Part shown: piece after piece, positions 1 to 9,154 of the stretch
How positions within the stretch are numbered: position 1 is the first letter of the stretch
How the letters are laid out: the number at the start of each line of letters is the position of its first letter
Virus record (IMG/VR): IMGVR_UViG_3300033153_003603
Coordinates: 1 to 21,603 of that record
DNA from: a virus
Length of the DNA stretch: 21,603 bases
Reading direction: 5' to 3' (one strand)
The notes under the pieces: generated by a model
What the model was told of the DNA's origin: nothing
Seen by the model: the letters and a program-made list of their open reading frames with translations, nothing else
The model's database searches: none
Program-made: the position numbers and the translations under genes

Positions 1-112
1 AATGGTAGACGCAAGGGCGACCGATTACCTCGTTGTACGCTATCGGGACTGGCTTGTATCAAGCCTTGGAAAAGCGAAACACGTATTGCAGGTTCGAATC
101 CTGCCTGTCGCA
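1..112 (+). tRNA. partial tRNA-like sequence (Leu/class II type) with oversized anticodon region
   Basis: The 5' acceptor strand lies before the window. Bases 1-9 read as a class II D-loop (AATGGTAGA), followed by CGC as the 3' half of a D-stem. A perfect T-arm is at 88-104 (GCAGG, loop TTCGAAT, CCTGC), followed by CTGTCGC as the 3' acceptor strand and A112 as discriminator. CCA is not encoded. A five-pair anticodon stem is possible at 14-18 with 63-67 (one G-U), but its loop would be 44 nt instead of 7, and no ordinary anticodon loop with U33 is visible. A short variable arm fits at 74-84. A minus-strand reading of the T-arm gives the RQDSNLQ string often produced by antisense tRNA. An alternative start at 17 (GCGACCG) also pairs with the 3' acceptor strand, with one mismatch. 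It may be a disrupted tRNA, an intron-containing tRNA, or a tRNA-like domain of the structured RNA that follows. Confidence 0.5.
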
Positions 113-117
113 AAATT

Positions 118-413
118 CATCTGCCATGTGCAGAAAGAGCTCGGGGTTCGTTAGACGTAACGAACGCTGGTGGCTTTTGCGGGATGTGCCGATAAACACC
201 CTGCTAAACGTCCTTCTGTGCTGATAAGTATCCTTGGGTACTTCCGCAAGGGTAGGTACAGGAGTCAAGCCCCACGTGGCTCAATGCCCTGGTACCCATT
301 GTGTGAGGGTGCTAGAGTACAGCACGGGTGAACGTCACTACCCGGTCACGTATGCAAAATCGTGTGTGAGTAGTGCGGTGACGGCACGAATCTTACCGTG
401 GGGCTTATTTTTT
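118..413 (+). ncRNA. large structured non-coding RNA (3' portion), candidate GOLLD/ROOL-type ornate RNA
   Basis: This stretch has no credible gene, is richer in G+C than its surroundings and is full of complementary segments. TTCGTTA at 147-153 pairs perfectly with 158-164. AAGTATC at 226-232 pairs with 237-243, and CC-GCAA-GG at 244-251 looks like a GNRA-capped helix. A perfect 10-bp long-range stem joins 267-276 with 397-406 and encloses further hairpins: CAATG/CATTG at 282-286 with 297-301, GTGCT/AGCAC at 309-313 with 321-325, CGGG/CCCG at 325-328 with 341-344, and GTCAC/GTGAC at 345-349 with 378-382. T6 at 408-413 directly after the closing stem suggests a terminator-like 3' end. Large ornate phage RNAs of the GOLLD and ROOL classes are known near phage tRNAs. 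Assignment to either is inference, because I cannot match a covariance model here. The 5' limit is uncertain and may lie before the window. Confidence 0.55.
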
Positions 414-450
414 ATGGAAGGTAAATAATCATGACAATAGGATAACAGCG

Positions 451-630
451 ATGGAATATGATAATCTACCAAGAGAATTAGAATGCCGAATTTTTAAGCG
501 GATAATGAAAATATTTGTTTATACGCACAGTGAAAATGCAATTAAAAGTATAGTCGAGGATGAAATTAAAAAATGGTATAAAGAGCAAGAAATTGTTTCT
601 GTTAAGAGTATCCATGATTGCTGGACATAA
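451..630 (+). CDS. small hypothetical protein (59 aa)
   Basis: An ATG-to-TAA frame of 59 codons follows the structured RNA, with a weak AGGA ribosome site about 8 bases upstream of the start. The product starts MEYDNLPREL and ends HDCWT. It is a mix of charged and hydrophobic residues with a likely helical middle (IKSIVEDEIKKWYKEQE). There is no signal peptide or membrane segment, and I do not recognise a family. The next small ORF begins 22 bases downstream with a better ribosome site, so the two may be co-expressed. Being a short ORF with a weak start signal, it is only moderately certain. Confidence 0.5.
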   Translation: MEYDNLPRELECRIFKRIMKIFVYTHSENAIKSIVEDEIKKWYKEQEIVSVKSIHDCWT

Positions 631-652
631 CAAACAATGGAGGATATAAAAA

Positions 653-844
653 ATGAGAATATTAATTAACATTACAATTGAAAATGATAAAGGAAGAAAA
701 ATTAAGGAAGATAGCTATTTATTGCTTGAATACGATAGATATGACATACAGAGAATGATTTTAGACCGAAGCAATGTAACAGATATATATGAGTTTAAAC
801 TTATTGCAGAACGAGATAATTCCAAATTGCATGGGCTAGAATAG
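653..844 (+). CDS. small hypothetical protein (63 aa)
   Basis: A 63-codon ORF with a good ribosome site (TGGAGGA, seven or eight bases before the ATG). The product starts MRILINITIENDKGRKI, consistent with a beta-strand start, and continues with a charged DRYDIQRMI segment. No membrane segment, cysteine motif or known domain is evident. It lies between a structured RNA and the terminase genes, a place where phages carry fast-changing small genes. The function is unknown. Confidence 0.6.
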   Translation: MRILINITIENDKGRKIKEDSYLLLEYDRYDIQRMILDRSNVTDIYEFKLIAERDNSKLHGLE

Positions 845-896
845 ATGAAATTTATAGATGGAGCTATTTAATATGTGGCTATGGTTGGAGGCAAAA

Positions 897-944
897 ATGA
901 AAAAGAAACAAGACAAAATTCGTAATAATTACAAAAAGAAGTAA
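897..944 (+). CDS. possible 15-residue basic peptide
   Basis: A strong ribosome site (TTGGAGG) lies four or five bases before the ATG at 897. The frame reads MKKKQDKIRNNYKKK and stops at 942-944. Nine of 15 residues are Lys or Arg. An in-frame upstream ATG at 873 would give 23 residues (prefix MWLWLEAK) but has no comparable ribosome site. The strong ribosome site is the only reason to list it, since peptides this short often arise by chance. Confidence 0.3.
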   Translation: MKKKQDKIRNNYKKK

Positions 945-945
945 A

Positions 946-984
946 CAACAGGACAAACACTGTGTCGGTGACCAGTGCCTGTTG
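946..984 (+). ncRNA. strong RNA hairpin upstream of the terminase genes
   Basis: CAACAGG (946-952) pairs perfectly with CCTGTTG (978-984). After a five-base bulge (ACAAA), CACTG (958-962) pairs with CAGTG (973-977), and GTC (964-966) with GAC (970-972) closes a GGT loop. This gives about 15 pairs interrupted by one bulge and one unpaired T. No T run follows, so it is not a standard terminator. It starts two bases after the tiny basic ORF ends. It could stabilise the upstream transcript, be a processing site, or be part of a small RNA. Confidence 0.5.
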
Positions 985-1051
985 GAAATTCAACTAAGGG
1001 GGAAGTATAGCCTTTACCTGAGGAAGAAGATGTAGTGGTAGTGTACTCAAA

Positions 1052-1080
1052 AGCCCGCTGTCTATTAAAGATAGCGGGCT
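1052..1080 (+). terminator. 12-bp hairpin, probable weak terminator
   Basis: AGCCCGCTGTCT (1052-1063) pairs with AGATAGCGGGCT (1069-1080) with one G-U pair and loop ATTAA. The stem is GC-rich at the base. On the + strand it is followed by ATTATT rather than a full T run, so termination may be partial. On the - strand it is followed by TTTT. It sits just before the promoter at 1098-1126, which suggests separation of the RNA/small-gene unit from the terminase unit. Confidence 0.45.
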
Positions 1081-1097
1081 ATTATTAACGGTTAATC

Positions 1098-1126
1098 TAC
1101 ACAATTAAAAAAATTGTTGCTATAAT
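1098..1126 (+). promoter_or_regulatory. sigma70-like promoter before the terminase genes
   Basis: TACACA (1098-1103, four of six matches to TTGACA) is separated by 17 bases from a perfect TATAAT (1121-1126). It lies after the hairpin at 1052-1080 and about 77 bases before the probable small terminase start, so it could drive the head operon. Confidence 0.5.
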
Positions 1127-1202
1127 TATTATATTGTTATATACTAATAGTACTATCAGTAAAACAATTAATAAACAGTATATAAACAAACAAGGTTGTA
1201 AC

Positions 1203-8434: not shown

Positions 8435-8553
8435 ATTTACGAAAACTTGTTGAGGAAATTAAGACAGAAAATGATGTTGTCGATTACAGAAAAAAGGTTG
8501 CAGATGAGATCGAGAAGTTGAAAGAAAAAGAAGAACACAGAACAAGGATATAA
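8431..8553 (+). CDS. tiny helical hypothetical protein (40 aa)
   Basis: The frame starts at the ATGA overlap with the preceding stop and has AGAGGAGG about a dozen bases upstream. The product, MNLRKLVEEI followed by DYRKKVADEIEKLKEKEEH, is almost wholly charged and helical. It ends five bases before the connector gene. It may be a small accessory protein or serve mainly to couple translation between neighbours. Confidence 0.6.
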   Translation: MNLRKLVEEIKTENDVVDYRKKVADEIEKLKEKEEHRTRI

Positions 8554-8557
8554 AATA

Positions 8558-9154
8558 ATGGCTTTTGATCCGTCAATAGATACTGATAATAATCTTGTCG
8601 ATCTTGATACTGCTAATGCGTTTGTCAATGGTGATACGGGCAATGCTGATCAGCAGAAGATACTGACATATTATATTAATAGTGCAAGTGCATTTTGTAA
8701 TCTATATACCGACAGGAAACTGAAGAGCCGGGAATTAACAGAATATTACAGCGGAGACGGCACGAATAGTATAATAACAAATGAATACCCGGTAACAGAG
8801 ATAACAGCGGTATATGATGATCTCAATAGAACGTATGGGAGCGATACTTTAATAGATAGTGATGATCTTGCTATATTACCAGATGGGCTTGCGTATAAAA
8901 TAGTGTATGATGGCGGAGTGTTTCAGGTCGGTATTCGGAATCTGAAAGTACAATATACAGCAGGTTATACATCGATACCGAATGACCTGCAACAGGCATG
9001 TTTGGAAGTGGTAGCGTATTATTTTAAGAATACCGAAGAAAACCGGTCCGGTGTTACAACAAGGACAATGGGCGGGGGTTCTGTTACGGTAGAAACGACA
9101 GATATACCGAAAAGTGCATTGAGAATATTGGAAAGATATAAAAGAAAATGGTAA
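8558..9154 (+). CDS. head-tail connector (adaptor) protein, gp6-like
   Basis: At 198 residues and in the first slot after the capsid block, it matches the adaptor that binds beneath the portal. Typical stretches are LVDLDTANAFV near the N-terminus, a TDRKLKSRELTEYYSG strand region, the IRNLKVQYTAGYTSIPNDLQ motif, a helix LEVVAYYFKNTEENRSGV and a Gly-rich MGGGSVT loop. The YTAGY-x-x-(I/L)P-x-x-(L/I) pattern is characteristic of this connector group. The ribosome site is AAGGA. The next gene begins 17 bases downstream. Confidence 0.75.
   Translation: MAFDPSIDTDNNLVDLDTANAFVNGDTGNADQQKILTYYINSASAFCNLYTDRKLKSRELTEYYSGDGTNSIITNEYPVTEITAVYDDLNRTYGSDTLIDSDDLAILPDGLAYKIVYDGGVFQVGIRNLKVQYTAGYTSIPNDLQQACLEVVAYYFKNTEENRSGVTTRTMGGGSVTVETTDIPKSALRILERYKRKW

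Follow-up and report, generated by a model that had tools for sequence, protein, structure and literature searches.

Nucleotides 172–413 of the window, the whole 21,603-nt stretch that we analysed (a 21.6-kb IMG/VR virus record), specify a structured RNA, which is neither a chance fold nor a gene. The RNA stands at the start of the record, as a large structured RNA by a tRNA-like sequence in a phage, just as a preliminary description had proposed. The locus is best explained by a non-coding RNA of ~240 nt within an operon of short accessory ORFs that share its strand and precede the terminase genes. The record runs on the + strand through DUF5681 (terminase small-like), terminase large, portal, head, connector, and tail genes. 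The GC content is 0.53 in the RNA versus 0.31 across the next 1.1 kb. Abundant non-coding RNAs of phages are known beside tRNAs (PMC12286853) and, as in ICP1, in gaps that lack ORFs (PMC7567579). The structures of large structured phage RNAs are well resolved, while known functions are still lacking; those of GOLLD and ROOL, large phage RNAs near tRNAs, are unknown (PMC12286853).

The folding calculations confirmed that the structured region is real. Segment 114–420 yielded a minimum free energy of −122.9 kcal/mol, whereas its shuffles averaged −100.3 kcal/mol (z = −4.1; 0 of 100 shuffles). Segments 172–412 and 266–408, folded alone, gave z-scores of −4.0 and −3.2, respectively. The closing stem P1, AAGCCCCACG paired with CGTGGGGCTT, was exact over its 10 bp and lay where the preliminary description had put it, and the T6 run was found at 408–413. 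The GNRA loop of that description was present (CC-GCAA-GG, 243–250 region), but it was not invariant, since AATT is inserted in the sister copy L005. The region carries no credible gene, as had been claimed: indels between conserved anchors are non-triplet, and no frame is open throughout all copies. The features are collected in Table 1.

Table 1. Features of the RNA and its surroundings in the window, and places of module A in other phage contigs.
Feature	Position	Strand	Remarks
tRNA-like sequence	1–113	+	T arm 88–104; acceptor 3′ strand 105–112; 5′ part cut off by window edge
Linker with hairpins	118–171	+	CTGC..GCAG and TTCGTTA..TAACGAA; joins tRNA-like sequence to RNA; z = −2.8
Module A, H-type pseudoknot	172–204	+	S2 covariation across unrelated phages
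Module A, S1	172–174/188–190		GGC with GCC; L1 TTTT 175–178
Module A, S2	179–187/196–204		GCGGGATGT with ACACCCTGC; L3 GATAA 191–195
Module B, long hairpin	212–265	+	TCCTTCTGTGC..GGTACAGGAG; two small inner hairpins, one GCAA-looped
3′ domain, conserved core	267–406	+	140 nt; covariation in 7 sequences including L043
P1	267–276/397–406
V1, variable hairpin	289–297/307–315
P3	325–329/340–344
P4	347–350/361–364
P5	366–370/392–396
P6	373–376/384–387		Loop GGTGACG
U tract	407–413	+	ATTTTTT; directly 3′ of P1, as in an intrinsic terminator
Shine–Dalgarno-like site	416–424	+	GGAAGG; 9 nt past P1
Module A in L058	18 nt after SSB stop
Module A in L059	10 nt after crAss-like major capsid stop
Module A in L071	after phrog_2367 gene
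Module A in L073	6 nt after stop of small ORF
Module A in L070 (identical in L074)	within 1.27-kb ORF-free region
Module A in L075			tRNA-bearing contig; overlaps 40-bit Fusobacteriales-1 match
Module A in L078	right after tRNA-Gln		weaker, uncertain (one S2 mismatch)

A terminase search retrieved eight contigs of the same phage population (TerL identity 96–100%). Six of them contain the 3′ domain and five the whole RNA, with a truncated copy in L006. The 3′ domain was also found by a later pattern scan in one clearly different phage, L043. The covariance model R1 detected eight copies at 116–161 bits plus the truncated one, and no other match in the records scanned. The viral scans relied on exact patterns, hence distant copies are missed; with three loosened viral patterns for the 3′ domain, L043 was the only new true copy, and the remainder were chance coding matches. 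One 3′-domain pattern run against 84,980 species genomes, a portal-protein search in species genomes, and phage and plasmid BLAST with the RNA gave no match.

The compensatory changes to which the preliminary description had looked for confirmation were found in these homologues. In seven distinct sequences of the 3′ domain, 98.4% of the cells were paired across 28 pairs, and seven pairs showed double changes (15 cells). Sliding the partners reduced the pairing to 29–52%, and no shuffle reached the observed covariation score. P5 changes from GUGAG/CUCAC to GCAGG/CCUGC, and P6 from GUGC/GCAC to GUAC/GUAC or GCGU/GCGU; the sister copies are close relatives and this P5/P6 covariation rests on few independent events, with L043, L003, L004, and L007 differing in several ways. 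L043 keeps the fold with a different sequence. The P6 loop is invariant save for one A in L008. V1, which was read by eye, has a fixed position and a sequence that varies between copies. A pseudoknot between GUCAC (345–349) and GUGAC of the P6 loop was rejected: in L043 the loop persists although GUCAC is lost, and covariation is seen in hairpin P4 instead. Among the sister phages, modules A and B hardly vary, which allows no covariation test within those phages; the changes in module B are one-sided only.

The RNA is modular. Modules A and B and the 3′ domain are gained and lost between copies, and the junctions fall at domain borders. In L003 and L004, A, B, and the 3′ domain stand directly behind the first codons of a small ORF, and in L008 behind another junction. 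In L007, which lacks A and B, the tRNA-like sequence is fused to the 3′ domain, and L043 has the 3′ domain only. The linker is missing from L003, L004, L008, and L043. L002 contains a second RNA upstream (1519–1680), which shares module A (97% over 35 nt) and has a different body with an 11-bp closing stem, AAGAATAGTAG/CTACTATTCTT; its fold z-score is −2.1, and model R1 does not match it. If the two copies of module A in L002 recombined, the arrangement in L003 and L004 would be the expected product.

The surroundings of the RNA are variable as well. At window 413–1200 and in the matching stretch of L003–L008, small-ORF cassettes are swapped between sister phages in a mosaic-like manner, and the cassette joints often lie at ACAGGATTAACRCTG. 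This region forms a recombination hot spot between the early genes and terS. Among the accessory ORFs, L005 3720–4097 encodes a YopX-family protein (Pfam PF09643, E = 1.8e-20). Upstream of terS, two more hairpins covary (window 948–982 and 1052–1080; six double-change pairs in six sequences). The hairpin at 1052–1080 is intrinsic-terminator-like, and a promoter-like site (1098–1126) comes next.

The tRNA-like sequence adjoins the RNA as the preliminary description had it. ARAGORN found no tRNA on the record. Upstream, L002 shows a D arm and the acceptor 5′ strand, and a composite of L002 and the window has all four stems (acceptor, D, anticodon, and T), its anticodon loop being longer by ~37 nt. 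On this composite, ARAGORN returned a cloverleaf only when a 37-nt anticodon-loop insertion was allowed. Nucleotides 1–113 alone displayed no excess stability (z = +0.4). A functional tRNA, having a complete cloverleaf and a 7-nt anticodon loop, was rejected in view of this insertion and of the arms deleted in sister phages. Because the D arm is lost in L005 and the 3′ part of the acceptor and T arm in L002, the sequence looks decaying; it is probably best taken for a tRNA that is decaying or has been repurposed.

With the pattern GGCTT-N-TGTGCCNATAAACA, we found additional contigs containing module A. In all, six or seven phage contigs that are unrelated carry it, and its stem covaries among them. 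Across these phages, 95.2% of the S2 cells were paired, and four pairs showed double changes (13 cells; 0 of 500 shuffles), with a covariation score of 0.603 versus 0.161 in the shuffles; these figures concern the positions left free by the search pattern, which fixes GGC/GCC of S1 and so leaves it untested. For S1, there are two independent hints: the second copy in L070 has GGU/ACC, and the Fusobacteriales-1 consensus has CGU/ACG. In 55 other viral loci (458 kb) scanned as a control, no unselected match exceeded 15.1 bits. The matches in L057, L072, L076, and L077 were discarded as probably due to chance on account of coding position or poor stems, scoring at most 24.6 bits as compared with at least 28 for those accepted. 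In cultured-phage relatives of L059 and L071, module A is absent from the corresponding spot.

In L070 (520–1790, − strand), and identically in L074, a 1.27-kb ORF-free region precedes a scaffold-like gene. Within it, 881 nt fold with a z-score of −11.6 (20 shuffles), and the region has no Rfam match. Module A lies at its 5′ edge, the second copy combines the altered S1 with a long insert in a loop, and a hairpin resembling a terminator (CACTTGT..ACAAGTG-T7) lies near 700–670. This ~1-kb region is a candidate for a new large phage RNA. Separately, a short non-coding motif, CAAACCCAGTAACCAYGCGGYTT, is common to L075 (~8520–8580, − strand) and the unrelated Klebsiella phage NC_071131.1, where it lies upstream of terS (L083 ~1500–1541); it also occurs in other phages, by count only.

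It is conceivable, if rather unlikely, that module A is a building block common to a wider, unrecognised group of phage non-coding RNAs, comprising the window RNA, the ~1-kb RNA of L070 and L074, and the type seen in L075 and Fusobacteriales-1. The portable pseudoknot would then serve the same purpose in each, for example by binding a common host or phage factor. If module A is common to several phage RNAs, one partner found would explain several RNAs together. The 140-nt core proven by covariation and the recurrent pseudoknot of ~33 nt are small enough for probing, pull-down, and mutagenesis, which makes them a tractable starting point.

In all eight 3′-domain copies, six or seven T residues occur among the first nine bases past P1. 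The Shine–Dalgarno site follows P1 after 8–10 nt and the ATG after 22–25 nt in each of them, though the next ORF differs. Because 8–10 nt between the end of P1 and the Shine–Dalgarno site leaves no room for a promoter, the downstream ORFs need readthrough. This requires either a leaky terminator, giving a discrete RNA and a readthrough mRNA, or an element that regulates readthrough. The RNA is retained while its neighbours change (three or four downstream ORFs and three upstream contexts), which argues for an RNA function of its own over the regulation of one gene.

We tentatively favour, at somewhat less than an even chance, an operon-embedded phage non-coding RNA with a leaky terminator-like end, the released RNA acting in trans. 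P1 and the U tract would form an intrinsic, incomplete terminator. Part of the transcripts would stop at the U tract, leaving a compact RNA, which may resist exonucleases through the pseudoknot toward its 5′ end and the closed multi-branch domain at its 3′ end. Readthrough would supply the next ORF. Where the tRNA-like sequence stands in front, tRNA processing could trim the 5′ side. During infection, the released RNA would most likely be a stable structured RNA that works in trans. The recurrence of module A in other phages, also at the 5′ border of the ~1-kb structured non-coding region with its terminator-like end, supports this reading. The shape of P1 counts against it, since a textbook terminator has a short loop and P1 closes a 120-nt domain. 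A consensus scan did not list P1, and upstream of the RNA no promoter-like site turned up.

The fixed spacing to the Shine–Dalgarno site could equally reflect a cis-acting element. The RNA would then lie in the leader of the small ORFs behind it and act like a riboswitch or antiterminator, as a conditional terminator or translation switch, with the P1-closed multi-branch domain sensing a ligand or protein and deciding on readthrough. Besides the spacing, which holds whatever the ORF, the 5′ strand of P1 can instead form a hairpin (AGCC/GGCU) with GTGGCTC, an invariant sequence immediately 3′ of it. Moreover, Fusobacteriales-1, the only Rfam family matching a module A RNA, is typed as cis-regulatory. 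However, the ORFs that follow are unrelated to one another (one of 59 aa, two other small ones, and one for a DUF7666 protein), and the upstream context varies as well. L002 even has two tandem paralogous elements with a tRNA-like sequence between them, the first without an ORF after it. We regard such a switch as possible, on the doubtful side.

The position of module A in L058, L059, L071, and L073, 6–18 nt past a stop codon and before the next Shine–Dalgarno site, suggests another role, SSB and the major capsid protein being among the genes concerned. Module A would be a 3′-end pseudoknot shielding upstream mRNAs from 3′ exonucleases, like the partial terminators after capsid genes, and the rest of the RNA would be scaffolding. 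Two crAss-like relatives of L059 indeed have ordinary terminator hairpins at the spot of module A. Nevertheless, the 3′ domain occurs without module A in L043 and L007, so A is dispensable for the core of the window RNA. In L070, L075, and L078, it is located within long non-coding regions or at their margins and not right after a gene. Such an element for mRNA stability or processing is an improbable account of the RNA.

A divergent GOLLD or ROOL RNA, which the preliminary description had suggested, is very improbable. The RNA is phage-borne, adjoins a tRNA-like sequence, and has a conserved 3′ and a variable 5′ part, as described for GOLLD (PMC12286853). Yet cmscan with 4227 Rfam 15 families at E ≤ 10 gave no such match in window 1–1200, and all of Rfam 15 at the gathering score gave no GOLLD match in the window and its relatives. 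The direct search for ROOL (RF03087) matched none of eight records at E ≤ 10, and control genomes likewise gave no match. That the region folds by chance, is a coding remnant rich in GC, or represents a DNA site (cos/pac or recombination site) is hardly credible, for, despite the recombination hot spot near terS, where junction sequences are shared, the compensatory changes, the non-triplet indels, and the fold kept by a second phage all speak against it.

The alternative of a new class, also raised by the preliminary description, fared better: the RNA of ~240 nt has a 140-nt conserved core and no GOLLD or ROOL match. A retron or group II intron RNA was rejected, as RVT_1 was absent from eight records (the control was positive) and no intron model matched. 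The trait of ROOL and GOLLD of being phage-encoded near tRNA genes recurs here, with the adjoining tRNA-like sequence and a tRNA-His ~375 nt upstream of the L043 copy. GOLLD is likewise phage-borne, lies beside or contains tRNAs, and combines a conserved 3′ with a variable 5′ part (PMC12286853), but it usually exceeds 800 nt, and L043 has the core only. ROOL (574 positions) is a phage and prophage RNA often near tRNA islands (PMC12286853), and the window RNA is much shorter (~240 nt versus 570+). Because sequence and length differ, the RNA is neither GOLLD nor ROOL. Fusobacteriales-1 (RF02920) has a middle hairpin laid out as module A (CGU..S2..ACG-gcUAA-S2′), a likeness seen via L075, which scored 40 bits, under the gathering score of 52.1. 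Its other hairpins are unrelated, Rfam models no pseudoknot at the module A-like hairpin, and RF02920 had no match in the window and L002. The abundant ncRNA of ICP1 (~800 nt) also occupies an ORF-less gap (PMC7567579), but it is known from RNA-seq and has no tRNA nearby, and we liken it by description, not by sequence. By analogy, GOLLD, ROOL (PMC12286853), and the ICP1 ncRNA (PMC7567579) appear to be the nearest functional parallels. The window RNA counts as a new family of a known kind, the structured phage non-coding RNA, outside the catalogued families.
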